From IMG/VR virus record IMGVR_UViG_3300043470_000963, positions 1 to 23,835 of that record: a stretch of 23,835 bases of DNA; one strand, written 5' to 3'. Numbering within the stretch: the first letter of the stretch is position 1; every line of letters begins with the position of its first letter. The notes beneath the pieces were generated by a model. The model saw only the letters and a program-made list of their open reading frames with translations, was not told the origin of the DNA and made no database searches. Shown in pieces: positions 3,346 through 21,129 of this stretch. Both the position numbers and the translations under genes were made by a program. This stretch comes from a virus.

Positions 3346-5580
3346 CTATCTAATTCTTAGTCTGCAGCGACAGTTGATTGTGGATCCAATTGGAGCAAGA
3401 GGGTCACCCGGGAATCTAAGCGTTTCGCCGTCAATTGCAAATCCTTCGTCCAGATCAACAGTTTTTCCATGAAGAAGAACATGCTCCCCCCGAACACGAC
3501 TGTCCTTACGGGTAATCCATGTTTTTTGAGGTGATCCAGCGGACTTTCCAGCAAAATAAATTCCAGCATTGTGTGATGTTTGTGCTTCAAGTTCAGCCAT
3601 AGTGCGTCTGCGTTTGCCGATCAAGTTAGCAAAAATTGCAATTAGTGCGGCCCTAAGCATGCTGTGCTTGTCTTCGTCATCACCAAGAGCCATTGCAATC
3701 ATTACTGCTGCGGCAACTTCGTCACGGGTGTTTGTGTTTGCTTTTTGCAGTCTTGCAACTTGTTCAGAGACAATCTGTTCTATATCTGCTTCTTCAACAT
3801 CAGGAGGCATCCCTGACCTTTGTGAACTCAACACAACGGCGTCCATGCCAGCAGATTTAAGAACGGGATAGATGTCTTCGGCAAGTTGCTTGTCCCAAAC
3901 TTCTTTGTCAAAAATTGCATCAACTGAAAGATTCTTTTGAATCAATGCTTTTCCTGATTTCGTTCCAGAAGCTTTTTCTAGAACAACACGCTGTTGACGT
4001 TCAAAAAGTCTTTCAAGGGCACGGTCAAGTATTTCAACCCACCTATCGGAGTCTTGTTCTTCTTTTGTGTCCCAATCGTCGTTAATCATTTCGTAATCAG
4101 CAGATTTCGTCATGAGTTCAGAAGAGGAACCAGAGAGCATGCCGTCGGGAGCCGGAGGAGTTGCCGTCTGCATACCCGCAGGAGCGCCATCAGGTGCCGT
4201 AGTCGGCATTGGTGGAGTTGTACCCATTGGTGGTAGTTCAGGCGTTGGAGCCTGTCCTGCGGTGTCTGTTAGCGATCCTGGAACGACTCCTGGCATTCCC
4301 GGAGGAGCACCAGCCGCAGCCATATCAACAGGTTGCTGTTCTTCTGGCTTAAATGGTTTTTCAGTATTGGCAATCGGAGTCAAGTTAGGGTTAGCCAAAA
4401 GACTGTCAGCCAATTCTGAATCAACTTTCTTTTTGCCTGTTCCGTCACGATATTCGTTGACACTGATAAGACCCTGTTGATACTCGTCCATCAGGTAGCG
4501 CGCACGTTCCTGCTTTGCCATGATGAGGATAGGAACGCTTCCCGTATCAAAATCAATATAATACTTTTCATCAAGATCATCCAAAGCACGAGCAAGAGGT
4601 TCAAGGTGTGGAAGCATTGTTTCCAACCAAAAGACTCGCAGTTCTTCTGATGCGTTAGAAAAAGTACGCCCTGCAGCGTTTCCGATAACTGATTCAGGGA
4701 CACCAAACGCAGAAAGTATTTCTTCTTTTTGGATTTGACGCATTTGCGTGTAGGCAGCATCTCGTGGCGAGGCTGAAGTGTCAATATAATCAACACCATC
4801 TTCTGATGCAATAACCGTAGTTGAGCCAGTACGACTCAAGTTTCCTCTAAACCTGTTACGCAACTCTTCCTTGTCGTCGTCTTCCATTTCACCACGAACA
4901 ACAAGAAGTCCACCCGGACGGCCGTCATTGAGCAAATAGTTGCGGTTATAGAGTTTTGATAAGTTTTCTAACTCAATCGCAATTCCTGCCGCCTCCATTG
5001 GAGTAATAGAAAGATAAGGATCAAGGGGGTGTGGTCTACGAATCCAAATAACATCACTTGGTTTTAGAATGACTTTGGTTCCGTTGCGCATATCAACTTC
5101 ATATCCAGAAACGAATGTCTTGGGATCGGGAATTGGGGCGGTGTGTTGAGGCGGAAGAAGATGAAGGGCGATAATTTGACCGTCACGCCCTCTTACTTTT
5201 TCAATAAACACGCCTCTTGAACTCATTAAAAGCTGAGAAGAAACTCTATAGCGGAATATGAAGGAGTTTTCTCCCATATTGGCTTTTGAGTTAAGAATGT
5301 CTAAAAGCGGATTGTTTTTATTAACAACTTGACCAGTAGGTGAATTGTCTTTACGCAAAATCATCGGCAGTCTGGCTTGGTTTCCAGCAATTGCATCAAT
5401 ACAACGGAAAACCCAAGTTACCTTTTGGACACCTTCACGGTATGCGCGCTCAATATCCCACGAATCCTTGTATGGCTTTCCCGCCATGCCAGCATTGAAA
5501 GCAACAGGTGCTCCTACATTAAGAATTGACTTTTGTTGCACACCTTGCAGTGATTTTTCATTAAACGAATTCCACGCCAT
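3346..5580 (-). CDS. Portal protein fused to a MuF-like minor head domain
   Basis: Forms the dodecameric portal at the capsid vertex through which DNA enters and leaves. Residues about 45-395 fit the HK97-type portal family (WVFRCIDAIAGNQARLP, HLLPP, PGGLL, EEILSAFGVPESVIG, GRTFSNASEE). A Pro/Gly/Ala-rich linker follows (about 418-486), then a helical region (500-660). The C-terminus (about 660-743) matches the phage Mu gpF/SPP1 gp7 minor head domain: TWITRKDSRVRGEH, HG, RFPGDP and the terminal INCRCRLR. These are separate proteins in many phages, so this is a fusion of 744 residues. The ATG overlaps the stop of the upstream membrane-protein gene (TAATG), indicating translational coupling; the Shine-Dalgarno itself is weak. 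The MuF part may be ejected with DNA or bind the portal interior (family knowledge, not shown here). Confidence 0.93.
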   Translation of the reverse strand: MAWNSFNEKSLQGVQQKSILNVGAPVAFNAGMAGKPYKDSWDIERAYREGVQKVTWVFRCIDAIAGNQARLPMILRKDNSPTGQVVNKNNPLLDILNSKANMGENSFIFRYRVSSQLLMSSRGVFIEKVRGRDGQIIALHLLPPQHTAPIPDPKTFVSGYEVDMRNGTKVILKPSDVIWIRRPHPLDPYLSITPMEAAGIAIELENLSKLYNRNYLLNDGRPGGLLVVRGEMEDDDKEELRNRFRGNLSRTGSTTVIASEDGVDYIDTSASPRDAAYTQMRQIQKEEILSAFGVPESVIGNAAGRTFSNASEELRVFWLETMLPHLEPLARALDDLDEKYYIDFDTGSVPILIMAKQERARYLMDEYQQGLISVNEYRDGTGKKKVDSELADSLLANPNLTPIANTEKPFKPEEQQPVDMAAAGAPPGMPGVVPGSLTDTAGQAPTPELPPMGTTPPMPTTAPDGAPAGMQTATPPAPDGMLSGSSSELMTKSADYEMINDDWDTKEEQDSDRWVEILDRALERLFERQQRVVLEKASGTKSGKALIQKNLSVDAIFDKEVWDKQLAEDIYPVLKSAGMDAVVLSSQRSGMPPDVEEADIEQIVSEQVARLQKANTNTRDEVAAAVMIAMALGDDEDKHSMLRAALIAIFANLIGKRRRTMAELEAQTSHNAGIYFAGKSAGSPQKTWITRKDSRVRGEHVLLHGKTVDLDEGFAIDGETLRFPGDPLAPIGSTINCRCRLRIR

Positions 5581-5822: not shown

Positions 5823-7127
5823 ATGCCCGACTGGAACAAAGTATTAGAATATTTGCAACCGAAGGAGCCTTTATTCTGTCCTGAAGAACCATCAATAACA
5901 CAAAAGGTTTTCCTACGTACTTACGCAATGGAAGCTCTTTTTGGTGGCGCTGCCGGTGGTGGGAAGTCGTCTGCGTTGTTGATGGCCGCAATGCAATATG
6001 TAGATGTACCCAATTACTCTGCAATTCTTTTCAGACGCACCTATGCCGACTTAGCACTTCCTGGTGCTCTCATGGACAGATTCAAAACATGGATTGGCGG
6101 ACAGGATGAAATTCACTGGAACGCAAACTCTTATGTTGCGACATTTCCGTCTGGTGCAAGAATCTCGTTTGGATATCTAAACAACACGAACGACTATCTT
6201 CGTTATAAGGGTTCGGAGTTTCAGTTTATCGGCATGGATGAGGTCACTGAAATTCGTGAATCCGACTACAGATACTTGTTCTCTCGTCTTCGTCGCCCTG
6301 CAACGGGCCCTCTTTCTCAGGTTCCTTTAAGAATGAGATCCGCTTCAAACCCTGCACCTAATTGGGTTAGGCAGAGATTTATTGTGGAAGGAAAGGAAAC
6401 TGGAAGAATTTTTGTTCCTTCTCTTCTGACTGATAACCCTGGAATTGACGCTGATTCCTACCGACAGGCGCTGACTGCTCTTGACCCCGTAGAGCGTCGC
6501 CGGCTTGAGATGGGTGATTGGTGGTCAACCACTTTGGGAACTATGTTTGATAGGACAAACTTTACAATTATAGATTCCACAGAAGTGCCAAATGTCACAT
6601 CAACAGCACGGGCAGTCCGGTTTTGGGACCTTGCAGCCACCGAACCATCTCATTCAAACCCTAACCCAGACTGGACCGTAGGGACATTGATGATTTTTGA
6701 TCAGGGAATTGCCTACGTTCTGGATGTCCGCAAAATACGGGCAAAAGGTGAAAAAGTAGAGGCTTTGATTGCCCAAACGGCAGCTGAAGATGGACGAATG
6801 GTGGCTATCAGAATTGAGCAAGAACCAGGTTCAAGCGGAAAAGCCCTAATTGACCAATATGCGAGATATGTGCTCCCAGGATATGATTTATCTGGAATCA
6901 GAGCGACTGGCGATAAAGTGACCAGAGCAAGACCTTTCAGTGCTGCGGTAGCAAATGGCAATGTGCGGATTGTTCGGGCACCTTGGCTAACTGATTGGTT
7001 GGATGAAATGGCATCATTTCCTGAGGCTTGCGACCACGATGACCAAGTTGACTCTGCTGTGGGTGCGTTCACTCATTTGGCTGGCCTGGGGTTGCCTCAG
7101 CGCCGTCGTGCCAGTATCATAATGTGA
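5823..7127 (+). CDS. terL: Terminase large subunit
   Basis: ATP-driven DNA packaging motor and genome-cutting nuclease that docks on the portal. The ATPase domain shows Walker A GAAGGGKSS (residues 42-50), Walker B FIGMDE (135-140) and the SNP coupling motif near 175. The RNase H-like nuclease domain shows D269 in RFWDLA, E332 in IEQEPGSSG, and a DDQVDS stretch (406-411) near the C-terminus, the usual acidic triad. The length of 434 is normal. The start ATG 5823 gives MPDWNKVLEYL, preceded by a purine-rich AAGAAGAAAG. No small terminase subunit is recognisable beside it. Transcribed away from the portal and protease operon. Confidence 0.95.
   Translation: MPDWNKVLEYLQPKEPLFCPEEPSITQKVFLRTYAMEALFGGAAGGGKSSALLMAAMQYVDVPNYSAILFRRTYADLALPGALMDRFKTWIGGQDEIHWNANSYVATFPSGARISFGYLNNTNDYLRYKGSEFQFIGMDEVTEIRESDYRYLFSRLRRPATGPLSQVPLRMRSASNPAPNWVRQRFIVEGKETGRIFVPSLLTDNPGIDADSYRQALTALDPVERRRLEMGDWWSTTLGTMFDRTNFTIIDSTEVPNVTSTARAVRFWDLAATEPSHSNPNPDWTVGTLMIFDQGIAYVLDVRKIRAKGEKVEALIAQTAAEDGRMVAIRIEQEPGSSGKALIDQYARYVLPGYDLSGIRATGDKVTRARPFSAAVANGNVRIVRAPWLTDWLDEMASFPEACDHDDQVDSAVGAFTHLAGLGLPQRRRASIIM
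7092..7120 (+). promoter_or_regulatory. Possible sigma-70-like promoter at the end of terL
   Basis: TTGCCT (7092-7097) and TATCAT (7115-7120) are separated by 17 bases and lie 44 bases before the next gene, whose Shine-Dalgarno is GAAAGG. Such a promoter could start the recombination operon. The match is only moderate and lies inside coding sequence. Confidence 0.25.
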
Positions 7128-7664: not shown

Positions 7665-8321
7665 ATGTTAGCAAATACATATCAAAACCTCTACGAGCCA
7701 TTCGCTCCCGAAGTAGAAAAAACCCTTAGCAAAGGCGGAGCAAGACTTACTTACATTCCAGTAAGCGAAGTGATTACTCGTCTTAACAAAGTTCTTGGAC
7801 TTGACTCATGGTCATTCAACATTTTGTCATGCTCTCGTGACGCAATTGATCCCGATTACATCGTTGCCCATGTTCGCCTTATGTGGCACACAGATGCAAC
7901 TCGTCCAGATTCGTGCATTATCCGCGATGGATTCGGTGGTCAAAAGATTAAGCGCACAAAAGCCGGCGACATTGTTGACCTTGGTGACGAAATGAAGGGT
8001 GCTGTTTCTGATGCACTCAAGAAGGCCGCACAAACGCTTGGTGTTGGTCTTTATCTTGCTCGCAGTGAAGAAGCGCTGAGCGCCGAAGAGCCACCAGAAC
8101 CAGTAATTGATTCAGCCATTGTGGAACTATGGGACAACTTTGTTCAAGTATCAAAAGGTCTTGACACAGCAGGAAAAACACAACTTGGAAGTTTCTGGAA
8201 AACATACGCTGGTTCTCGTCCGAAGCCAACAAAACAAACCGCAACAGTAAAAGATTTAGAAGAACTAATTGGCGAATGCCTGCGTATCTCTTTTAGTGGA
8301 GCACCATCTACTGATGAGTGA
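7665..8321 (+). CDS. Rad52/22-type single-strand DNA annealing protein
   Basis: Anneals complementary single strands during phage recombination. Residues about 15-133 fit the Rad52_Rad22 family: LTYIPVSEVITRLNKVLG, the beta strands around YIVAHVRLMW, a basic loop (QKIKRTKAG), and the diagnostic DLGDEMKGAVSDALKKAAQTLGVGLYL (105-131). The C-terminal part (about 135-218) is a Pro/Glu linker and a helical tail, probably for partner binding. Starts immediately after the previous stop (TAAATG) and overlaps the following nuclease gene by eight bases, so annealase and exonuclease are co-translated, as in Red-like two-component systems (family knowledge). Confidence 0.88.
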   Translation: MLANTYQNLYEPFAPEVEKTLSKGGARLTYIPVSEVITRLNKVLGLDSWSFNILSCSRDAIDPDYIVAHVRLMWHTDATRPDSCIIRDGFGGQKIKRTKAGDIVDLGDEMKGAVSDALKKAAQTLGVGLYLARSEEALSAEEPPEPVIDSAIVELWDNFVQVSKGLDTAGKTQLGSFWKTYAGSRPKPTKQTATVKDLEELIGECLRISFSGAPSTDE

Positions 8322-9084
8322 GTTTATTCTTAAACCACCTCCGTATCTTTCTCCATCTTCAATTTCAACATTTCAACAATGTCCGCTGAAGTATAAGTTT
8401 TCTAGAATTGATGGTCTTCAAGATCCGCCAACAGAAGCAACTCTTCGTGGCAACTTTGTTCATAGCATTTTAGAAGATTTATACTCTTTGCCCAAAGATG
8501 AACGAACCCTAGATAGGGCAAAGTTGGTTGCTAAAGAATGGTGGGAGATGGAATATGCCGAAAAGATTGCCCCCTATGTAAAGGGAGACGAGGCCGTACG
8601 GCTCTTTAGATGGAGTTCGTGGTGGTGTGTTGAGAATCTGTTTGCAATGGAAGATCCAACAGCACTTCATTTTGATGGAATTGAAACCGAACTTAACGAC
8701 ACTATTGATGGTGTTGCTATCAAAGGCTTCATTGACCGATGGAGAAATACTGATGACGGAATTATCGTTGGTGATTACAAAACTGGAAAAACACCATCTC
8801 CTAGATATCGTGACGATAAGTACTTTCAACTCCTTCTCTACGCTTACGTGTTGGAAAAACAACTAAACCAAACCGTAAAAGAAATTGAACTACTGTTCAT
8901 TAAAGACGCAGTTCTTCTCTCAAAAACAGTTACAGATGAAGATAGAGAAAATGTAAGAAGCACGGTAGTGCACATTCGTAAAGAAATTGACTTACGGTGT
9001 GTCTCTGGTGAATTTGAACCAATCAAGCACAGATTATGTGATTGGTGTAGCTATAAAAAAATATGTCCAGAATGGAATAAATAA
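8314..9084 (+). CDS. PD-(D/E)XK exonuclease, Cas4/RecB family, with probable Fe-S cluster
   Basis: 256 residues. Motifs in order: SPSSISTFQQCPLKYKF with C23, GNFVHSILE with H50, GFIDRW with D141, GDYKTGK with D154 and K156, QLLLYAY with Q172 and Y176, and CDWCSYKKIC with C242, C245 and C251. The four cysteines flank the nuclease core as in Cas4 and AddB, where they hold a 4Fe-4S cluster. The likely role is resecting DNA ends to give strands for the upstream Rad52-like annealase. No cas genes or repeats are nearby, so it is not a CRISPR component. I chose ATG 8314 (MSEFILKPPP); the earlier in-frame ATG 8269 would extend 53 bases into the upstream gene and adds nothing family-like. Confidence 0.9.
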   Translation: MSEFILKPPPYLSPSSISTFQQCPLKYKFSRIDGLQDPPTEATLRGNFVHSILEDLYSLPKDERTLDRAKLVAKEWWEMEYAEKIAPYVKGDEAVRLFRWSSWWCVENLFAMEDPTALHFDGIETELNDTIDGVAIKGFIDRWRNTDDGIIVGDYKTGKTPSPRYRDDKYFQLLLYAYVLEKQLNQTVKEIELLFIKDAVLLSKTVTDEDRENVRSTVVHIRKEIDLRCVSGEFEPIKHRLCDWCSYKKICPEWNK

Positions 9085-9593
9085 TGAATGACGATTCCTT
9101 CGCAAGGCTAGTAGCCGAAGAAATCAAAAATAAAGTATCGGATCAACAGCGCGAGTATCTTAAACTTCCAGAAAACTGGGGAAGATGGCAACGTGCTGTA
9201 AGTATTTTATTAAAAAATTTAGACAATCAAGTTGAAGAAATCATAAAAGGCGAACAGCAGGATGTGGCTACATATCAGGCGCTCGGCAGTGAAGGCATAA
9301 CCCTTATAGCTGAGGTTGTTTCTGATTCAGCAGAGCGCCGAAAGAAGATTGACCGATTTCGGTTCCATGTTGCTCACCGTCTTGACGAGATAACACGGAT
9401 GATTGCTATGTCCACCGATCAGGTTGAAGAACGAATGAAAACTGTTGAGTTTTTACGTCGTGCAATCAAGTCACACAAAGACCTTATGTACGAATACGAC
9501 CTTGAAGAAACTGCTATTGATACCGCACTATGGGCAACACTTGACGGGTATTGGACATTTGACGATATTGACGAACACAGTATTTTGGGATAA
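9084..9593 (+). CDS. Unknown helical protein in recombination cassette
   Basis: 169 residues, start overlapping the nuclease stop by one base (TAATG). The sequence is strongly helical and charged, with long amphipathic stretches (EEIKNKVSDQQREYLKL, RRKKIDRFRFHVAHRL, RMKTVEFLRRAIKSHKDL) suggesting coiled coils, and an acidic C-terminus (WTFDDIDEHSILG). No enzyme motif is visible. Its position between an exonuclease and a DNA-binding protein suggests a DNA-metabolism role, but function is unknown. Confidence 0.75.
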   Translation: MNDDSFARLVAEEIKNKVSDQQREYLKLPENWGRWQRAVSILLKNLDNQVEEIIKGEQQDVATYQALGSEGITLIAEVVSDSAERRKKIDRFRFHVAHRLDEITRMIAMSTDQVEERMKTVEFLRRAIKSHKDLMYEYDLEETAIDTALWATLDGYWTFDDIDEHSILG

Positions 9594-9595
9594 AA

Positions 9596-9871
9596 ATGGC
9601 AGAATCAGTAAACTCTACAAATACACCGATTGGAACTCTTATTTTGAGATATCTAAAAATGAAAAATACCACTGGTGCAAGCGCTTCCCAAATACTTGAG
9701 ATGTTCCCACACCGATTTTCTAAACCTTCGCGAGTGAACGAAAGATTGACCGATCTTCACTCCAAAGGGTATGTTAAAAAGAAAAATTCCATGTGTTGGA
9801 CAATCACACCCACGGGAACAAATTTTTTGCAGCGCTATGCTAAAAAGTCCGCATTGCAAAGTTCGGATTAA
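9596..9871 (+). CDS. Small winged-helix DNA-binding protein
   Basis: 91 residues. The layout fits a winged helix-turn-helix: helix 1 IGTLILRYLKM, helix 2 SASQILEMF, recognition helix SKPSRVNERLTDLHSKGYV, then the wing VKKKNSMCWTITPTG and a C-terminal helix. Such proteins usually regulate transcription, or bind DNA within replication complexes. Starts two bases after the previous stop, with GGGA upstream. It could control this cassette; no target is identified. Confidence 0.75.
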   Translation: MAESVNSTNTPIGTLILRYLKMKNTTGASASQILEMFPHRFSKPSRVNERLTDLHSKGYVKKKNSMCWTITPTGTNFLQRYAKKSALQSSD

Positions 9872-9872
9872 T

Positions 9873-9956
9873 ATGTACATATTTGTAGATATTATTTTGT
9901 TTTTTTCAATGTTTTTTCTTGGAGTTTTAGTGGGGAACTCAAAATGGAAAGACTAA
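9873..9956 (+). CDS. Possible 27-residue single-span membrane peptide
   Basis: ATG 9873 to TAA 9956 encodes MYIFVDIILFFSMFFLGVLVG followed by a short polar tail, i.e. one long transmembrane helix. It fills the 72-base gap between the winged-helix gene and the next ORF and overlaps the latter by 13 bases. No strong Shine-Dalgarno is visible; the nearest is GTTCGGA. The start codon lies inside the perfect palindrome ATATGTACATAT (9871-9882). Plausible as a real small gene but short enough to be chance. Confidence 0.4.
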   Translation: MYIFVDIILFFSMFFLGVLVGNSKWKD

Positions 9957-10177
9957 CAATGCAAGAAAAACTTCTAGAAGAACTCAATCAAAAACTTTTA
10001 AACATTGAGCAGTTTGTTGATTCAACAAGCAATAAAGATTTAAAAGAACTATTCTCTTCTGTTATTGATTTAACCGACGAGTATGTTGGTTTCATAGACA
10101 AAATCAACAAACTTGAATCGCTAGTAAGTGCAAAAGATGCAGAAGTTCAACGCCTCTCCCAGATAGCAAAGTACTAG
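9944..10177 (+). CDS. Small coiled-coil protein, unknown
   Basis: 77 residues from ATG 9944; an alternative ATG 9959 with GGAAAG seven bases upstream gives 72. The whole chain is charged and leucine-periodic (KLLEELNQKLLNIEQF, DKINKLESLVSAKDAEVQRL), typical of a short coiled coil. No catalytic motif. It directly precedes the PP-loop gene (four bases between), so it may be an accessory or chaperone-like partner of that module; this is inference. Confidence 0.65.
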   Translation: MERLTMQEKLLEELNQKLLNIEQFVDSTSNKDLKELFSSVIDLTDEYVGFIDKINKLESLVSAKDAEVQRLSQIAKY

Positions 10178-10181
10178 GCAG

Positions 10182-11318
10182 ATGCCAAGACAGAGAATGT
10201 TTCTAGATATGAGTTGCGTTGATGCGGCCCGTCAACGAATAAGGCACATATATGATACTTTTGATACTGTTTGCGTTCAGTTTTCTGGAGGAAAAGATAG
10301 CACAGCAGTGCTTTATTTGGCTAAAGAAGTTCATGAAGAAAGAGGACTCGGGCCAGTCAAAGTGATTTTCCGAGATGAAGAAATGGTAAGCCCTAAGGTT
10401 GTTGAGTTCGTAGAAAAAGTACGAGATTATGACTGGATTGACATGGAATGGTACTGCCTTCCGGCTGGTCAAGAAATTTGGATTTTGGGTCGCCGTGAAT
10501 ACTGCTTACTGTGGTCGCAAGCTCGGGCAGATAAAGGTCTTTTGGTTAGGGACATCCCTAAAGGTGCAATCACCGCTAAACACTTTGGCATTGATCCGTA
10601 TTTTCCAGCGCCAGAAGGTCACGACTATTACACAATGCAGGGAAAAATGGGAAGAACTGCGTTTCTTAACGGTGTCCGTGCAAATGAGTCAATGATTAGA
10701 TACAGATCGTGTGTTCAGAAACTCCACGAAAACTACATCGTTGCGCCTTTCAAGGTTAAGAAGTCAATACCTCTAAGGCTTGCAAAAGTAATTTACGACT
10801 GGACAACTGATGACGTCTTGAAATTCATCACAGAAGAACACGGTGCTGAGTACTGCGAGTATTACGACCTTGCTTCACTTACTGGAAGCAATACGAGAAT
10901 TGGAATACCTTTGCATTCTGTAGCGATACGGAGAATTGGTGATGTTGTTTCAACTGAACCTGAATTTTATGACAAGCTTTTTGATTGTTTTCCACAAATA
11001 GATGCACAGCGTCGGTGGTGGCCTGAGTTCAACATTGAGAAACTTATCGCCTCTTACGCCAAAAATGGTTATGACGGGGTTCGTGATTGTATTGAGCAAA
11101 ATATGCTCACTCCTGGAATCAAAAATGCAGCGTATAAATTTGCTGGAGAATTTAGGAAAAAGCAAACTAATGATCCTTTTGGGTTTCCAACAGATCATTT
11201 GCTTCGCATTTTGTTGCTTAATGATTTTCAGGCAAACTCTCCTTCGCCTGTCGGTCCAGGAACAAGAGCGCACACGATGAGAATGATTGCTAATGAACAA
11301 ATGGAAGAAAATTTATGA
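10182..11318 (+). CDS. PAPS-reductase-like PP-loop protein (DUF3440/IbrA type)
   Basis: 378 residues. The PP-loop SGGKDSTAVLYLAKEV begins at residue 35 and is the ATP-pyrophosphatase motif of PAPS reductase, tRNA-thiolation and DndC enzymes. The chain continues long after the reductase core, with EYCLLWSQARADKG, GVRANESMIRYRSC and the C-terminal segment HLLRILLLNDF, fitting the DUF3440 group found beside ParB-like genes. It lacks the usual C-terminal redox Cys motif of cysteine-pathway PAPS reductase as far as I can see. Probable chemistry is adenylation of a substrate or sulfur transfer; the substrate is unknown. An ATG 15 bases further in is an alternative start. It overlaps the next gene by ATGA, indicating a tightly coupled pair. 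Confidence 0.82.
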   Translation: MPRQRMFLDMSCVDAARQRIRHIYDTFDTVCVQFSGGKDSTAVLYLAKEVHEERGLGPVKVIFRDEEMVSPKVVEFVEKVRDYDWIDMEWYCLPAGQEIWILGRREYCLLWSQARADKGLLVRDIPKGAITAKHFGIDPYFPAPEGHDYYTMQGKMGRTAFLNGVRANESMIRYRSCVQKLHENYIVAPFKVKKSIPLRLAKVIYDWTTDDVLKFITEEHGAEYCEYYDLASLTGSNTRIGIPLHSVAIRRIGDVVSTEPEFYDKLFDCFPQIDAQRRWWPEFNIEKLIASYAKNGYDGVRDCIEQNMLTPGIKNAAYKFAGEFRKKQTNDPFGFPTDHLLRILLLNDFQANSPSPVGPGTRAHTMRMIANEQMEENL

Positions 11319-14576: not shown

Positions 14577-16055
14577 ATGCCCGGAGTAACAATCAACACA
14601 GCAATCAGAACGGGTGCTTCGGCATCTACCACTGCGCCAGGGGCAACATTTTTTGTTGTTGGTGAAGCGGAACGCGGTTCAGACACTTTTGCTGTCGCAT
14701 GTACAAGTATTGACGACTACACGACCGCTTTTGGCGGTTTTGTGTCTGGTAAGTACCTTTACCAAAGTGTTTACACATTTTTTGAAGAGGGTGGCTCTCT
14801 TTGTTATGTAGCAAGAGCTACTAAGAGCACTGGTTCAAACGCCAGAGCTTCTTTGGGTTTGATTTCCACAGGATCTACTGTTGCAGTAACACTCACTGCG
14901 GCTGGTCGCGGCGACTGGGGCGAGAACATTTCCATCACTGTAAGTGCGGCTGTTTCTGGTGTTTACACATTTTCCATTAAGTATAGCGGCGTAGAACTCT
15001 GGACCGGTGGATATGAAAACTCTGGAGATTTCGTTGATGCAGTGAACAACAGTACTGTTCTTAAAAACTATGTAACAGCAGCCACCACGAATCGTGCAAA
15101 TACCGCTTTTGTTACTGTTTCTACAGCCGCTGCGCTTGCTAACGCAGGAACTGACGGTGCCGCCACAACAGCAGATTTTATTTCTGCTCTTGCTCTTTTC
15201 ACAGAAGATCTTGGCACTGGTTGTGTAGCCATTCCTGGTGCGGTTGATACCGCATCTTCAACAACACGTGAAACAGATTTCTGGAACCCTATCAAGACAC
15301 ATTGTGTAGCAAATAACAGAGTTGCTCTTCTTTCGTTTGAAGAAACAGACGATGCGAGTTCTGTTGCCACGATGTCAACTGGTTATGTGGGTGACAATCA
15401 TGAGTACCTCGCGATGTACTATCCGTGGATCACGATTCCTTATCTTGGTAACTCAATCAGTATCTCTCCAGAATCATATGTTGCGGCTGCTCGTTCAAAA
15501 ACGGTGACCGCAACTGGAACTTGGGAAGCTTACGCAGGTGAAATTACGATTCCAAGATTTGTTAATGGAGTTGTAACCGTTGTCGGCAGGACAGCCGGTG
15601 ATGCTCTTGATGCTGCTTATGTTAATGCAATCAGAATCATTAACGGCGATGTAAGAGTTTACGGTGCTCGTTCTCACTCAACAGATGTTGCTCAGTTCAG
15701 ATTTATTACAAATAGAGACACAATCAACTACATCGTTGACAGATGTGAGCTTCAACTTGAAGCACTCATCTTTTCTTCTATCAATGGAAGAAAGACACTT
15801 TACGGCAACATTGAATCAGCGATTCAGGGAGTTCTTGAACCAATCAGACTTTCTGGTGGTTTCTATGAAGGATTTGATGCTCGTGGACGCCGTACAGACT
15901 ATGGTTACACCATTACAGTCAACGATACACTTAACCCAGTTTCACAACTTCAAACAGGTCTTATTAAAGCCCAAGTTGGAGTTCGTATCTCAAGTGTTGG
16001 TGACAAAATCACTGTAAGCATTATCAAGTCAAACCTGACAACTAACCTCGCCTAA
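14577..16055 (+). CDS. Contractile tail sheath protein
   Basis: 492 residues, usual length for phage sheaths. The N-terminus GVTINTAIRTGASASTTAPG...VVGEAERGSDTF...DDYTTAFGGF and FFEEGGSLCYVARA are the family's opening domain. The C-terminus (DRCELQLEALIFSSINGRKTLYGNIESAIQGVL...DYGYTITVNDTLNP...KAQVGVRISSVGDKITVSII) is the conserved assembly domain. Subunits stack in rings round the tube and contract to drive it into the host. GGAGGA lies six bases before the ATG, among the best Shine-Dalgarnos in the window, matching high expression. The tube gene follows after 14 bases. Confidence 0.95.
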   Translation: MPGVTINTAIRTGASASTTAPGATFFVVGEAERGSDTFAVACTSIDDYTTAFGGFVSGKYLYQSVYTFFEEGGSLCYVARATKSTGSNARASLGLISTGSTVAVTLTAAGRGDWGENISITVSAAVSGVYTFSIKYSGVELWTGGYENSGDFVDAVNNSTVLKNYVTAATTNRANTAFVTVSTAAALANAGTDGAATTADFISALALFTEDLGTGCVAIPGAVDTASSTTRETDFWNPIKTHCVANNRVALLSFEETDDASSVATMSTGYVGDNHEYLAMYYPWITIPYLGNSISISPESYVAAARSKTVTATGTWEAYAGEITIPRFVNGVVTVVGRTAGDALDAAYVNAIRIINGDVRVYGARSHSTDVAQFRFITNRDTINYIVDRCELQLEALIFSSINGRKTLYGNIESAIQGVLEPIRLSGGFYEGFDARGRRTDYGYTITVNDTLNPVSQLQTGLIKAQVGVRISSVGDKITVSIIKSNLTTNLA

Positions 16056-16069
16056 GACGGAGAACCATC

Positions 16070-16579
16070 ATGTCAAACCAAAACGGAACCGCATACAACA
16101 TTAGAAATAATGCTGCAAAGATTGCTCCACAGCGCCAAATTGTTGCTGCTATTTCCCCGTCACTTACTCAGGCGGACACAACGCTTGGTACGATTCCAAC
16201 TTTTGCTGAGTTTTTTGCTCAAGTATCTGGCGGTGAAATTCAAGCACAGGTTGAGAAGGTGTACCACGGTGGGGCAAAGTGGCCATCCATTGTTACGGCT
16301 CCAGCAGAAGTAGGGGATGTGACTCTTACTAACTATGCAGTAGCTGACACTACCTTTATTGCGAACATGCAAGCTCTTCGTCAACTTGTCGGTAGAGTTT
16401 ATTACGATATCACAGTCAAGGTGTTGAACACTGGTATTGAACTAGTTGGAAACGACAGATACTACGGTCAGGCTCTTTTGGTCGGTCTTACGGAACCAGA
16501 CGGTGATGCTTCAAGCGGAACTCCTGCCACTTTTGGTCTGACTTTCATGATCTCGTCAGTCGCAGTTGCAACAGCATAA
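16070..16579 (+). CDS. Tail tube protein
   Basis: 169 residues, in the canonical slot after the sheath. Contains EFFAQVSGGEIQAQVEKVYHGGAKWPSIVTAPAEVGDVTLTNY, the typical start of contractile-tail tube proteins, and a beta-rich YYDITVKVLNTGIELVGNDRYYGQALLVGLTEPDGD. Forms hexameric rings that make the inner tube. Shine-Dalgarno GGAG lies upstream of ATG 16070. A GC-rich hairpin follows its stop codon. Confidence 0.9.
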   Translation: MSNQNGTAYNIRNNAAKIAPQRQIVAAISPSLTQADTTLGTIPTFAEFFAQVSGGEIQAQVEKVYHGGAKWPSIVTAPAEVGDVTLTNYAVADTTFIANMQALRQLVGRVYYDITVKVLNTGIELVGNDRYYGQALLVGLTEPDGDASSGTPATFGLTFMISSVAVATA

Positions 16580-16632: not shown

Positions 16633-17142
16633 ATGGATACACCTTTCACAATCATGCCAGTAGACGACACCCCTGGTGCGTCAAATGAGCCAACAATCCT
16701 TGCACAACTCAAAAAAGTTATTGAAGGAAGCGTAAAGCGTCCTGATATCTTTGTTGAAGTTCCAGAGCGACCCGGCGTTACTGTCCGCGTTTCACCCAAC
16801 GTCACTCAGCATCAGTTGAAGTCTTGGAGAAAAAACGCAGGAGAAGAAAGCAAATCAGGGATGGACACCCTCAAGTTTGCTTGCTCAGTTATTGGCCACA
16901 CAACCACAGGTATTGCATTTAACGGCGAAATGGTTATTGATGGCAACGGTTATGAAGTCAACTTTGCTTCTCCAGAAATCCTTGAAATGACCAAGACGAC
17001 ACGCGCTCTTCCTGACTGTGTTCGTGCTTTCTTTGGTCTTGAACCCCATGTTGAAGCTGCTGCGGTGGCAATCATGGAAGCATCTGGATATGGGGACTCG
17101 GTGGAAACTATGGACCCTACGAAGGGGTCATCCAATTCTTAA
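16633..17142 (+). CDS. Tail assembly chaperone, zero-frame product (gpG-like)
   Basis: 169 residues from ATG 16633. It sits between tube and tape measure, the slot of the tail assembly chaperone that binds the tape measure during assembly. Residues 1-60 are acidic, then VEVPERPGVTVRVSPNVTQHQLKSWRKNA and FACSVIGHTTTGIAFNGEMV form a folded core, ending MEASGYGDSVETMDPTKGSSNS. No Shine-Dalgarno is evident before 16633. An in-frame TTG at 16600 falls inside the hairpin and is unlikely. The sequence past the stop continues open in the -1 frame (see the 17127 entry), the classic arrangement for this gene. Confidence 0.8.
   Translation: MDTPFTIMPVDDTPGASNEPTILAQLKKVIEGSVKRPDIFVEVPERPGVTVRVSPNVTQHQLKSWRKNAGEESKSGMDTLKFACSVIGHTTTGIAFNGEMVIDGNGYEVNFASPEILEMTKTTRALPDCVRAFFGLEPHVEAAAVAIMEASGYGDSVETMDPTKGSSNS
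17124..17127 (+). other. Candidate -1 frameshift slippery site
   Basis: In the zero frame the codons are ACG AAG GGG TCA, giving four Gs at 17124-17127. The GGG codon (17125-17127) can re-pair perfectly one base back, and AAG can re-pair one base back with a G-U first-position wobble. It is the only run in the possible window (17055-17142) where the A-site codon is identical after a -1 step. It is not a textbook X-XXY-YYZ heptamer. Confidence 0.45.
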
Positions 17143-17300
17143 CTGAAGACGTGCGGGTAATTTCTGCTGCACGGTTAGGTGAGTTGTTTGGTACTGACCC
17201 CATCAGAATCCTTGATGGTGATGATACGGAGTGGTTGATAAGAGTAGCGTGTGCTAAAGTTATTGGAGATGATAGAGAGCGCGCTTCTAAGGAGAAGTAG
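17127..17300 (+). CDS. -1 frame extension of the tail assembly chaperone (gpT-like)
   Basis: In the -1 frame relative to the chaperone, the sequence is open from just after a stop at 17052-17054 to TAG 17298-17300. It encodes VIQFLTEDVRVISAARLGEL FGTDPIRILDGDDTEWL and a charged end RERASKEK. No ATG occurs in this open stretch, so independent initiation is unlikely. It bridges exactly the gap between the chaperone stop and the tape-measure Shine-Dalgarno. A slip at GGG 17125-17127 would give a fusion of about 222 residues ending here. The conserved order tube - G/GT frameshift - tape measure (lambda, P2 and many others) supports this; no frameshift has been shown here. Confidence 0.75.
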   Translation, partial: VIQFLTEDVRVISAARLGELFGTDPIRILDGDDTEWLIRVACAKVIGDDRERASKEK

Positions 17301-17309
17301 TTAAAACTC

Positions 17310-17325
17310 GTATTATATTTAATAC
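17310..17325 (+). repeat. AT-rich hairpin upstream of tape measure
   Basis: GTATTA, a four-base loop and TAATAC form an exact 6-bp stem just before the GGAG Shine-Dalgarno of the tape-measure gene. It might be an RNA element or contain a -10-like TATTAT. No firm role. Confidence 0.25.
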
Positions 17326-17337
17326 TTCGGAGTGCAT

Positions 17338-20300
17338 ATGGCTGAGAATGTCACAATTAAAATTGACGTTGATGCCGATATTGCCAGTATCACCGCAGTA
17401 CGCGCAGCTCTTAACGCAATGTGCAGTGAAGTTGATGACTGCACCAAAACGATGGATAAACATCGCAAGAAGATGGATGAAGTTACATCCACTCATGACT
17501 CTCTTGCAAAAGGCGCAAATAAAAATACCAAAGCCTTAAATAGTCATTCTGGCGCAACTAAGAATGCGACCAAAAATCAGGATAGTTTCCTGAAGAGACT
17601 TTTTAGTGTCAATGACGCAACCAAGACCCTTTTGGGCGGATTGCACAAACTTATAAAATTTGGCATTAAACCAATGGCTATTGAAATGGCCGCTGCAGCA
17701 CTAGCAATTGCTTCATCGGCGTTGCTATTTAAATCGGGCGCAGCATTCGCTAAGGGGTATCAATTAGCCCTATCTGGTGTTGCTTATGCAATAGTTGCGG
17801 CAACGGCTGCTTTTGCCACATTCTTAGCAGCTCAGAGAGAGTTTGCGTCAACTTCTTTTGCTCCAATGTTTGCTGATGGGGCAACAAATACAGCCAGTAG
17901 TGTTGAGGCTGCTTCTTCCGCAATGAAGATGTTTGTGGATGATGCTCAATTAGCAGTACTTGGATCAAAGTCGCTTACCGCAGCCTTCTCAACCCTCTCC
18001 AAGCAGGGACCTGTCACTGGTAAAACAACCGCAGCTTTTAGAGCCTTAGCGGATGTTACAAGCGGTATGGGAGGGGACATAGGCAAGAACTCAGAAGAAC
18101 TAGCAAAGTTTATGGCTGAGTATCAGAAGCGCGGAACGTTTGGTTCCAAAGTTCAACAAGCCGGTAAAGCGCTTGGCCCAGAGTTCACGAAAATACTTAA
18201 AGAAGCAAACGCTCAGGGAATCAACACTTATGACAAGTTTGCTGAAGCTGCTGTTAACGGAACACTAGGAGATACTTTCAAAAAGTACTCTGGTCAACTT
18301 GGAAACATGAACAACACGCTTGTTGGTCAAGCAAAGGGTGCCTTGAGTGAAATCAAGGGAATGTTTGTTGAAATGGGTGAACCTCTTCTCGGGCCGGTCA
18401 AGCAAATTTTCCAACAAATGACGGGCGACATAAGAGTCTTGTTCATGCGCATCAATGCCGAAATGGGTGGCGTAGTAAATGGCGGAACGCTTCAGAAACT
18501 TGCCGATGGTTTTGGAAAAATAACCAATGCTATTGGAAGACTAATTGAGACACGTGTTCCTGACGCTACGAATGCTCTTGGAAGATTGAGTGATGGTTGG
18601 AAAACCTTTAGTAACTTAGCCAGTAGAATAGTAGAATGGTTGCGTCCTTTGCAGGATGCTGCTTCTGGTATCTGGAAAGCTTTGTTGCCTGCTTTACGCG
18701 CCGTGGGTGAAAGCTTTGGTGGAACCGTTGATCAGATTGCCATGTTCTTTACTGACAAATCGTTTTTAGACAATTTAACAAAATTTTCTATGGCATTTGC
18801 CGAAGTTTATTTGGCACTTTCTAATATTGGAACACAAATAAAAGACGCCTTTGTTAAAGCTCTTCCAGTTATGACTATTGTTGCAAAAGTAGTTGCTGCA
18901 ATTCTTACAGCAATGGGAGCGCTGCTTTCCCTAACAAACAAACTCCCTGGAGCTCTTGGTGGTATAGCAACATTAGGCGCTGCTTTTATCGGTATGAGGG
19001 CGCTCAAAATGGGCGGGGCACAAGTTAAAGGAAAAGTTGGTGGAGCACTCAATGCTGGCGCTTCAAAACTAACTGGCGGTACAGGTGCTATGCCTGGTGT
19101 TGCTTCTTCCACGGGCACGATGAATGTCACGGCTGGTTCTGTGTATGTAAATGGAACAGGAGTCACTGGAGGCGCAGCGGGGACTGTTGCGAATGCAGCA
19201 GCGGCACGAGCAATCGGTGGTGCTGGTGCTGCTGGACGAATGAGTATGGGTCAGCGATTTGGTAACTATAGATCAAGAGTTGGTGGTGAATTTCAAAGAA
19301 TTAGAGGAGGAATAGGACAGATTGCTTCACCTAGCAATGGATTGAACCGACGTGCAAATTTTGGGAACATGTTTTTTCCACCTACTACAACTCCAGGTCT
19401 TGGAGCCAGCGCAACGGGTTCATTAAATTATGGACAAAGAGCCGCTAATGCTTTTCAGGGTTCTCGCTACGGTGGAGCAAGCATAACTCAATCTTTAAAA
19501 AATTCCCGAAAAGCCGTAGGCAGACAGTTTGCAGCATCTGGCGGCATGGGCAATGTGGCAAGTAAGGTTGGCAATATTGCAGGAAACCCAATGGCGCTGA
19601 TGATGGGTGGAACCGCAATAAGCGGTCTTGATATTGGTGGAAAACAAGGAAACGCTGTTACTGGTTCTGCTGGCAGTGCAATGCAGATGGCGGGTATGGC
19701 AAAAATGATGGGTGCTTCTGGTCCAACTGCAGCCCTACTTGCTGGTGGAACCGCTGCTTGGAAACTTGGTGGATCTGTTTCTGCCGGGATGTTTGGAAAT
19801 AGTGACAGCAATGTTGCAAAAGCCGGAGGAGGACTTGCTGGTGCAGCCACTGGTGCGGCAATTGGTGCAACTATCGGAAGTGCGGTTCCTGTTTTGGGAA
19901 CAGCCCTTGGTGCGGCTCTCGGTGGTGCTATTGGTTTTGCGGCAGGAGTTTGGAACGCTGGAAAATACAACAAGCAAGCACGTTCAGCAGCTAAAGAATT
20001 TATTGCTGGTTATGCAACACGCCTAGATGATGCCATGAGTGCTGGCGACCTTGAAGGTGTTCAGTCTGCTGTTGACAATGTTTACGCAGATGCCGCCGCT
20101 GCTGGTAAAGGAAACATTGATGTTTACAACAAGGAAATTGAAAAGCGCAAAAAAGAAATTGATGCACTAAGCAAAGGCGCATCTAATTATTCTAAAAATG
20201 CTGGATTATTTCAAATAGTATTTGGTGCCGACGCAAAAGAAATGGTAAAGATTGCAAACAAGGCCGGTGTTGGGATAGATGGTCTCAAAAAAGGCATTGT

Positions 20301-21129
20301 CGGAGTTATGGATGTTGCCAAAAAAGCGGGAATAAATCTTACGGAAAAAATGGCTCCTGGTTTAGCTAACATGAATGCCCAAATGCTTGACGCAAAAATG
20401 GCATTGTTTGATGCTCCTCTTCAAGCTCTTGACATGCAGAATCAATTTGATGCAATGCAGGACAAGATTGCAAGCGGTGACACAAGTAAATCCACGATTA
20501 TTCAGTTCTTAAAAACAGGATTTCAACGTGGTTACGCTTTAACTGGAAGTTCTTCAAAAGCAACAGTAATGCTGGAAGACACGATGAAGCTTCTTGCGGA
20601 TGTAATGCCTGGACAGATTGACAAAATAATGAAAGTTGCGTCTGAGATTGGTGTTTTTGATTCAAAGAGAGAGTCGGAATCGTTTATAACATCCAAGGGT
20701 TCTACATATTCTTCAATATTTGGAGAAGCCATAAGGAACTCGGGCGTAAAGGGAGTTTCGGATACTCAAATTTTGACTCAAATAGGTAAAGTTATTGCGG
20801 AAGGTGGAGCGGGTGCTTCGGTTGCAATGGATGACCTTTTAAATAATGTTTTGACAGGAAAATCATCAGGTAAAGATATTCTTGCTTTCCTTAACACTGG
20901 ATATTTGAATACTCCTAATCCTGATGCACAGGGGAATGATGTTCTTCCAAGTGGAAAAAGAGTTGCTCCCGTTGATCCAAGTTCGCTTTCTACACAGGTT
21001 GCATATGCACCAAATATTCAAATTAGTGGTGTTATTTCTGTTGATGATAAAGCAGCACAAAAGGTCATTACTGATATTGTTGATGCGCAGTGGCTAAAAA
21101 TAAAAAGACAAAATCAAGGTGCTAAGTAA
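17338..21129 (+). CDS. Tape measure protein
   Basis: 1263 residues from ATG 17338 (GGAG five bases upstream; the GTG at 17332 overlaps that site and is less likely). It sets tail length and is ejected into the cell envelope. The N-terminus is helical and charged. Hydrophobic segments lie at about residues 114-164, 511-554 and 831-874, the last a Gly/Ala-rich GAATGAAIGATIGSAVPVLG region typical of tape measures. A Gly/Ala/Ser-rich low-complexity stretch covers about 555-855. No lysozyme or peptidase motif is apparent. With about 0.15 nm per residue as known for the family, tail length would be near 190 nm. It overlaps the next gene by one base (TAATG). Confidence 0.92.
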   Translation: MAENVTIKIDVDADIASITAVRAALNAMCSEVDDCTKTMDKHRKKMDEVTSTHDSLAKGANKNTKALNSHSGATKNATKNQDSFLKRLFSVNDATKTLLGGLHKLIKFGIKPMAIEMAAAALAIASSALLFKSGAAFAKGYQLALSGVAYAIVAATAAFATFLAAQREFASTSFAPMFADGATNTASSVEAASSAMKMFVDDAQLAVLGSKSLTAAFSTLSKQGPVTGKTTAAFRALADVTSGMGGDIGKNSEELAKFMAEYQKRGTFGSKVQQAGKALGPEFTKILKEANAQGINTYDKFAEAAVNGTLGDTFKKYSGQLGNMNNTLVGQAKGALSEIKGMFVEMGEPLLGPVKQIFQQMTGDIRVLFMRINAEMGGVVNGGTLQKLADGFGKITNAIGRLIETRVPDATNALGRLSDGWKTFSNLASRIVEWLRPLQDAASGIWKALLPALRAVGESFGGTVDQIAMFFTDKSFLDNLTKFSMAFAEVYLALSNIGTQIKDAFVKALPVMTIVAKVVAAILTAMGALLSLTNKLPGALGGIATLGAAFIGMRALKMGGAQVKGKVGGALNAGASKLTGGTGAMPGVASSTGTMNVTAGSVYVNGTGVTGGAAGTVANAAAARAIGGAGAAGRMSMGQRFGNYRSRVGGEFQRIRGGIGQIASPSNGLNRRANFGNMFFPPTTTPGLGASATGSLNYGQRAANAFQGSRYGGASITQSLKNSRKAVGRQFAASGGMGNVASKVGNIAGNPMALMMGGTAISGLDIGGKQGNAVTGSAGSAMQMAGMAKMMGASGPTAALLAGGTAAWKLGGSVSAGMFGNSDSNVAKAGGGLAGAATGAAIGATIGSAVPVLGTALGAALGGAIGFAAGVWNAGKYNKQARSAAKEFIAGYATRLDDAMSAGDLEGVQSAVDNVYADAAAAGKGNIDVYNKEIEKRKKEIDALSKGASNYSKNAGLFQIVFGADAKEMVKIANKAGVGIDGLKKGIVGVMDVAKKAGINLTEKMAPGLANMNAQMLDAKMALFDAPLQALDMQNQFDAMQDKIASGDTSKSTIIQFLKTGFQRGYALTGSSSKATVMLEDTMKLLADVMPGQIDKIMKVASEIGVFDSKRESESFITSKGSTYSSIFGEAIRNSGVKGVSDTQILTQIGKVIAEGGAGASVAMDDLLNNVLTGKSSGKDILAFLNTGYLNTPNPDAQGNDVLPSGKRVAPVDPSSLSTQVAYAPNIQISGVISVDDKAAQKVITDIVDAQWLKIKRQNQGAK

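Follow-up and report, generated by a model that had tools for sequence, protein, structure and literature searches.

In phage lambda the ribosome slips at the canonical heptamer GGGAAAG. The lambda tail assembly chaperones gpG and gpGT are related by -1 programmed frameshifting, and the same source documents G_GA first triplets in several eukaryotic viruses, for example G_GAU_UUU in pea enation mosaic virus, the examples given there being eukaryotic RNA viruses (PMC5009743). G-U re-pairing has been discussed for phage sites in the PRFect paper, which reports 103 genomes with no recognised motif in the 10 bp around the frameshift as annotated, 22 of which had none in the whole overlap (PMC10885494).

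The locus described here lies on a 23,835-base virus contig, IMG/VR record IMGVR_UViG_3300043470_000963, which was analysed over its whole length and is called the window. We put at about 0.87 the probability that the region encodes a chaperone pair of the lambda G/GT type, produced by programmed -1 frameshifting at the putative slip site G_GAC_CCT. The longer chaperone is very probably made by some ribosomes slipping by -1 at this unusual slippery sequence. The features concerned are as follows.

14577 to 16055, plus strand: tail sheath of a contractile-tail phage (phrog_23, E 1.7e-23).
16070 to 16579, plus strand: tail tube protein, 5' neighbour of the chaperone (phrog_5102, E 4.5e-19).
16633 to 17142, plus strand: zero-frame tail assembly chaperone, gpG-like, 169 residues (phrog_5088 'tail assembly chaperone', E 3.3e-11).
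17112 to 17118, plus strand: putative slippery heptamer G_GAC_CCT, with -1 reading GGA CCC (from site conservation in 164 sequences).
17115 to 17300, plus strand: -1 second half, gpT-like, from CCC at 17115 to the stop TAG at 17298-17300.
17119 to 17123, plus strand: 5-nt spacer between the heptamer and the predicted stem (sequence and fold prediction).
17124 to 17201, plus strand: predicted stimulatory RNA structure (fold prediction, excess stability).
17338 to 21129, plus strand: tape measure-sized protein of 1263 residues, 3' neighbour (position and length).

The window thus carries a contractile-tail module of sheath, tube and chaperone followed by a tape measure-sized ORF, with the chaperone gene placed between the tube gene and the tape measure gene, and the same order is found in annotated relatives. 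A Pfam search with the product of 17338-21129 gave no informative match; the gene at the corresponding place is annotated as tape measure in 15 phage records. In the phage Jinkies (L051) an annotated methyltransferase gene (162-833) is inserted between the tube and chaperone genes. Elsewhere in the window, the minus strand encodes a prohead protease-like ORF (Peptidase_S78, 1240-3237) and a portal protein that carries a fused Mu F-like domain (3346-5580), whereas the terminase (5823-7127) is on the plus strand like the tail genes. The stretch from the terminase to the tail genes (7665-11318) encodes a Rad52-like protein (7665-8321) and a PD-(D/E)XK/Cas4-like nuclease (8269-9084), followed by a protein with a PAPS reductase domain (10182-11318).

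Like the gene for lambda gpG/gpGT, the window gene is located just upstream of the tape measure gene and combines a zero-frame chaperone with a -1 extension, and a low-copy fusion would be expected in the window phage. Unlike lambda, which has a canonical heptamer, the window has G_GAC_CCT, and we infer the binding roles of the fusion. The resemblance to the pea enation mosaic virus site lies in the first triplet, which is G_GA instead of one base repeated three times, and in a stop codon that follows shortly 3' in many of the sequences studied here; the second triplet, UUU in that virus, is CCC on a proline codon in the window, and the host of the site is a DNA phage. Closer relatives are found among phages of actinobacteria. 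In Gordonia phages GMA6, ChisanaKitsune, ScarletRaider and DalanDe both halves are related to those of the window, the D-P junction is the same and the halves are annotated as joined by frameshift, but the site is the canonical C_CCT_TTG, one codon further 3', and GAC is preceded by C or T. Among myoviruses of Arthrobacter (Klausavirus, Marthavirus, Vibakivirus and others), 21 of the 22 records fetched share the position of G_GAC_CCT, and the -1 half is related; they differ from the window in the next codon, which is ACC, CAC, CAG or CTC, and none of these records has an annotated join. The exception is Arthrobacter phage Abba, with C_GAC_CCT_ACC.

The mechanism that we infer, which extends to the ribosomal slip, its tandem character, its efficiency and the role of the fusion in assembly, would operate as follows. 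Most ribosomes would read 16633-17142 and produce the 169-residue chaperone, and a minority would move one base in the 5' direction at G_GAC_CCT, with the tRNA-Asp paired to GAC and the tRNA-Pro paired to CCT shifting together to GGA and CCC. According to standard pairing rules, the proline tRNA would re-pair fully on CCC, and the aspartate tRNA on GGA would keep its pair at position 1 and form a G-U pair at position 2; in sequences with A_AAC, the asparagine tRNA would re-pair at both positions on AAA. The product would be the same if both tRNAs slipped after translocation, from the P and E sites. Slipped ribosomes would continue with TAC GAA GGG GTC and on to 17300, yielding a 222-residue fusion. 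The extra helical domain of this fusion probably brings the tail tube protein to the chaperone-coated tape measure, as in lambda gpGT, and the stem that begins 5 nt downstream probably stimulates the slip. Both halves, the position of the junction, the constraint on the heptamer and the excess stability of the downstream RNA were established by sequence comparison.

The zero-frame protein is a tail assembly chaperone by several comparisons. Besides its PHROG assignment, its best match in a viral library was the Cantare tail assembly chaperone (E 1.6e-9). The predicted structure (mean pLDDT 81.6) resembled YqbN (3klu; Z 11.2, rmsd 4.9 over 112 residues), a prophage tail chaperone relative, and less strongly the tail assembly chaperone of HK97 (2ob9), with an rmsd of 4.1 over 99 residues and Z 5.8, a score in the range below 8 that may reflect just a common arrangement. 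The chaperone had no Pfam match at E ≤ 1, its profile reached at best E 0.12 against PDB sequences, with proteins that by name are not from phages, and NCBIfam returned no match for either half.

The zero frame of the chaperone stops at TAA 17140-17142. In the -1 frame the stop TGA 17052-17054 is followed only by TAG 17298-17300, so that the frame is open over 17055-17297. An earlier note on this DNA, made from the window sequence, had proposed a second half of the tail assembly chaperone in the -1 frame, open for 57 residues past the chaperone stop and without ATG. This proposal holds: the 57 residues (VIQFLTEDVRV...) are those read from 17127, and ATG is absent from the frame, although GTG 17151, TTG 17184 and TTG 17235 are in frame. 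Its further statement that the frame exactly fills the gap to the ribosome site of the tape measure gene is true only loosely, with 27 nt (17301-17327) between the stop and the CGGAG that precedes ATG 17338. The predicted fusion comprises chaperone residues 1-162 and 60 added residues (YEGVIQ...SKEK), and at its junction TMDP is followed by YEGVIQ.

Folded alone with AlphaFold2, the -1 half gave a four-helix domain starting at the junction, with a pLDDT of 95.2. Its profile matched the annotated frameshift halves of the four Gordonia phages (96.3%, E 1.7e-9) and the corresponding halves of eight Arthrobacter phages (98.0%, E 1.5e-13). Against Pfam the window -1 frame matched HEAT alone, at E 0.15 and under its cut-off; PHROGs gave no match, no PDB structure scored above Z 2.9, and the viral library yielded at best small proteins of phages (E 4.4e-3 and 2.9e-2). 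A tblastn search of phage records with the -1 frame and a threshold of E ≤ 10 found 21 records, of which 14 were from phages of Arthrobacter, 2 each from those of Brevibacterium and Gordonia, and 3 from those of Haloarcula. The best were Cantare (E 1e-4) and Pippa (E 6e-4), the others among the matches listed being at 0.1 or weaker; the two Haloarcula matches listed fall in a thymidylate kinase (E 10). The alignments start at query residues 11-26, and the residues GPYE are 20-23. Two PHROG families of 'unknown function', phrog_8820 with 45 positions and phrog_14573 with 42, correspond to the 3' ends of the -1 halves in Colucci (E 7.1e-26) and Wyborn (E 4.3e-12), and from these matches both families are probably truncated frameshift halves.

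For comparison, IMG/VR scans and fetched records yielded 327 sequences including the window, many of them fetched repeatedly. The chaperone was matched in 326, 7 left their contig before the stop and 4 were too short; the remainder collapsed to 164 distinct sequences over 260 nt, window included. Each IMG/VR alignment scan kept the best 80 of 428-520 relatives, and the set therefore leans towards the queries. One scan of genome contigs found one relative, in an Actinomycetota MAG. The -1 frame passes the zero-frame stop in all 164 sequences and is complete in 162, the other two (L009 and L127) running off their contigs. Beyond the zero-frame stop the complete -1 ORFs extend for 52-68 codons (median 58), and counted from the CCC codon they measure 60-73 codons (median 65). 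In the metagenome clade, which comprises 136 rows, the second half has a substitution pattern that follows the -1 frame, with 15.0, 7 and 34.1 changes per site at -1 codon positions 1, 2 and 3, next to 8.1, 5.6 and 33.5 at the positions of the zero frame upstream. Both frames are thus conserved in relatives, the -1 frame as protein, and by this comparison the -1 half is a real coding extension and not a product of chance.

The sequence GGACCCT at 17112-17118 is its sole copy on either strand of the window. An in-frame CCC is present at the site in 164 of 164 distinct sequences, an invariance that is partly by construction because the rows were anchored on it; no row lacked an in-frame CCC, and a single row (L112) offered two candidates. 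The preceding codon is GAC in 125 sequences and AAC in 38. Most of the clade of the window keeps GGA CCC TA[CT] GA (17112-17122), which reads D-P-(T or M) in the zero frame and G-P-Y-E/D in the -1 frame. Classified by the bases before CCC, the 164 rows comprise 119 G_GAC, 38 A_AAC, 4 C_GAC, 2 T_GAC and 1 A_AGC, with no G_AAC and no A_GAC, and the 65 representatives left after clustering at 80% identity comprise 49, 10, 3, 2 and 1 of these classes, respectively. The earlier note had considered its heptamer not to be a strict X_XXY_YYZ, and this is correct also for the site identified here: the second triplet is identical (CCC, 17115-17117), the first is GGA and not GGG, and the whole, GGA CCC T, has the form of the relaxed G_GA-type heptamer, in which G_GA is followed by an identical triplet. 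The 38 A_AAC rows do give AAA CCC.

The heptamer begins with the wobble base of the codon before GAC or AAC, a base that is read in the fusion in the zero frame alone. Where a fourfold-degenerate codon precedes GAC (94 rows), this base is G in 91 and C in 3, the latter being Gordonia phages with C_CCT_TTG, while at other fourfold wobbles in ORFs of the G_GAC class G accounts for 18%. All 38 AAC codons are preceded by GAA (35) or GTA (3). At other places, a wobble base and the first base of a following Asp or Asn codon combine as G-G 294, A-G 270, A-A 245 and G-A 303 times, so there is no general coupling between them. On the tree the wobble base at 17112 changed 8 times, compared with 53 times for the next wobble upstream, 27-53 times for the wobbles of the seven codons upstream of the site and a median of 44 for 141 aligned wobble columns; outside the site, the only columns as low are those of residues that mostly have a single codon (Trp with 3 changes, Met with 8). 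The switch between G_GAC and A_AAC requires 3 changes on the best tree, a quick tree with long-branch warnings, and 1 such GG/AA change is forced by well supported branches; the coupling therefore does not represent 38 independent events.

The open frames narrow the position of the slip. Since two rows, both T_GAC, have a -1 stop immediately before CCC, and ArV1 has its zero-frame stop two codons past CCT, a slip site shared by every row would have to be CCT or the codon 3' of it. For the G_GAC and A_AAC rows taken by themselves, GAC/AAC is compatible with the open frames as well as these two codons: here the -1 frame is open by the codon before CCC, opening exactly there in 2 and 4 rows, respectively. 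Over all 164 sequences the zero-frame stop follows 2 to 8 codons past CCT. Seven rows lie outside both purine classes, and five of these, the four Gordonia phages and Brevibacterium phage Cantare, carry CCT TTG or CCT TTA and hence, shifted 3' by one codon, the canonical C_CCT_TTR. The remaining two, Abba (L080) with C_GAC_CCT_ACC and L236 with T_GAC_CCC_ACG, match neither type of heptamer and keep both frames; their sites favour a role of tRNA-Pro alone in those phages.

Extended to all members, that last idea is the strongest competitor, and we consider it unlikely. The same product would be made if the peptidyl tRNA-Pro alone slipped from CCT to CCC, with ACG in or awaiting the A site and the bases upstream of CCT carrying no signal. 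An in-frame C_CCN is indeed the sole element common to all 164 rows, and such a slip also covers Abba and L236, which have C_GAC or T_GAC and lack TTR after the proline codon. What it leaves unexplained is the nearly frozen wobble before GAC and the absence of G_AAC and A_GAC among the 157 rows that have a purine before GAC or AAC. Our reading is a tandem slippage of tRNA-Asp or tRNA-Asn together with tRNA-Pro at R_RAC_CCY, that is, at G_GAC or A_AAC followed by a proline codon. Transcriptional slippage was set aside on inspection by eye, the site having no long run of A or T.

A separate second protein with a start of its own, perhaps made by termination-reinitiation, draws support from the annotation of related phages, and we regard it as very improbable. 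The 27 phage records fetched comprised 4 from Gordonia, 22 from Arthrobacter and 1 from Brevibacterium. A joined CDS is annotated in all 4 Gordonia records; others from Gordonia phages that appeared among the matches (Hanem, Gray, Chidiebere, Kabocha) have instead a second ORF of a different name under the match. None of the 23 Arthrobacter and Brevibacterium records has the join; 15 have a separate downstream ORF and 8 have nothing. Of those 15 ORFs, 14 end at the stop of the -1 ORF, and that of EastWest is in another frame. However, 12 of the 14 same-frame ORFs start 8-31 residues inside the conserved half and with differing start codons. In Lilmac1015 (L041) and Bolt007 (L081) the annotated start, ATG and TTG respectively, is 9 codons ahead of CCC, early enough for the entire half to be produced by itself; the -1 frame of these two phages is open for 372 and 513 nt before CCC, and a separate second protein is conceivable in them. 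A start-like codon (ATG, GTG or TTG) occurs early in the -1 frame in 36 of 164 rows, among them the window, but in 128 rows no such codon occurs between the point where the frame opens and the 20th codon past the site. The GTG at 17151 lies only inside the conserved half, and a start there would lose the first 12 residues counted from P; conservation of the protein begins at the junction. An independent start was therefore rejected as the general mode, Lilmac1015 and Bolt007 having a start-like codon before the site. The earlier note had named an intact independent start in relatives as grounds for abandoning its proposal; the 128 rows lack even a start-like codon in this stretch, and the 36 rows have one. 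The note was right that a simple ORF caller would miss the product, or would truncate it, and annotators of related phages have overlooked this type of slip site.

The earlier note had placed the slip at GGG 17125-17127, on G_GGG at 17124-17127, where a glycine tRNA could re-pair perfectly in the window genome. This placement did not survive the comparison and is even less probable than a separate start: of 164 sequences, 8 have GGGG at this place, a set of which the window and its near copies make up 4; the zero-frame stop is reached at or before that codon in 17 of 164, and the conserved site, 17112-17118, is found 7-13 bases further 5'. The GGGG itself falls in the 5' arm of a predicted stem, the outer part of which pairs GGGGUCA (17124-17130) with UGACCCC (17195-17201).

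The RNA downstream of the heptamer was predicted to be unusually stable. The 100 nt from 17122 folded at -34 kcal/mol (z -2.60 versus dinucleotide shuffles, 0 of 200 shuffles as stable; z -3.55 with GC-matched synonymous shuffles), and the first 60 nt alone were not unusually stable (z -0.73). In a sample of 51 rows, made up of the window plus one in three of the other distinct rows, the 100-nt stretch that follows the site had a median z of -2.56, with 29 rows below -2, as compared with medians of -0.06 (1 below -2) and 0.02 (5 below -2) in two upstream control windows. Shorter stretches were weaker (median z -1.17 at 60 nt, control -0.11; -1.88 at 80 nt). Synonymous GC-matched shuffles, scored in the 43 rows that yielded enough matched samples, gave a median z of -2.21, and triplet permutation gave -2.24 in 61 rows. 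The first stem arm began 4-8 nt past the heptamer in 88 of 149 rows versus 49 and 60 of 149 in the controls; as the median stem distance was 5 nt at the site and at both controls, only this enrichment is usable. The exact stem pairs of the window are not kept position by position and fail in most relatives, so the claim is limited to excess stability, and the structure, if used, would be rebuilt in each lineage; a single conserved RNA structure was dropped for this reason. The fold that the earlier note had suggested examining thus returned a stem and a stable 100-nt stretch, but neither an unusual first 60 nt nor conserved pairs. Rfam had no match at E ≤ 1 in 16900-17400.

An assembly or sequencing error that splits one continuous gene, for which the frame break itself is the sole argument, is negligibly probable and is refuted by the relatives, the break being at the same place in 164 distinct sequences.

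A literature search, a weak negative in that large result sets were partly covered, found no paper naming GGACCCT or AAACCCT as a slip site of phage tail chaperones. AAACCCT appears in PMC4283147 in a promoter table only, the word 'frameshift' does not occur in the text of the Arthrobacter phage paper PMC5513430, and the passage of the GMA6 paper that mentions a conserved programmed frameshift does so without a slippery sequence (PMC4524720).

On the evidence of its sequence, the gene is very probably a frameshift gene of the lambda G/GT type that is ordinary in kind, with a class of site that strict heptamer searches would miss. We lean towards a broader view, in which a large family of contractile-tailed phages, whose members with named hosts infect actinobacteria, uses R_RAC_CCY with obligatorily matched purines, and in which lineages have swapped register with C_CCU_UUR. 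Between the two forms the slip would have moved by one codon with the D-P junction kept, and the site would therefore have been re-invented in place.

Frameshifted tail chaperones are well known, and their sites are usually sought as three-and-three heptamers. A conserved heptamer with a proline second codon and G-U re-pairing on the first codon offers a concrete rule for finding fusions that have been missed, and this rule would add a join to 23 records (22 from Arthrobacter and 1 from Brevibacterium, Cantare, through the canonical site). The sites with G_GAC, A_AAC, C_GAC and T_GAC, followed by TTR or not, form a natural series on the tRNA pairs that drive -1 slippage.
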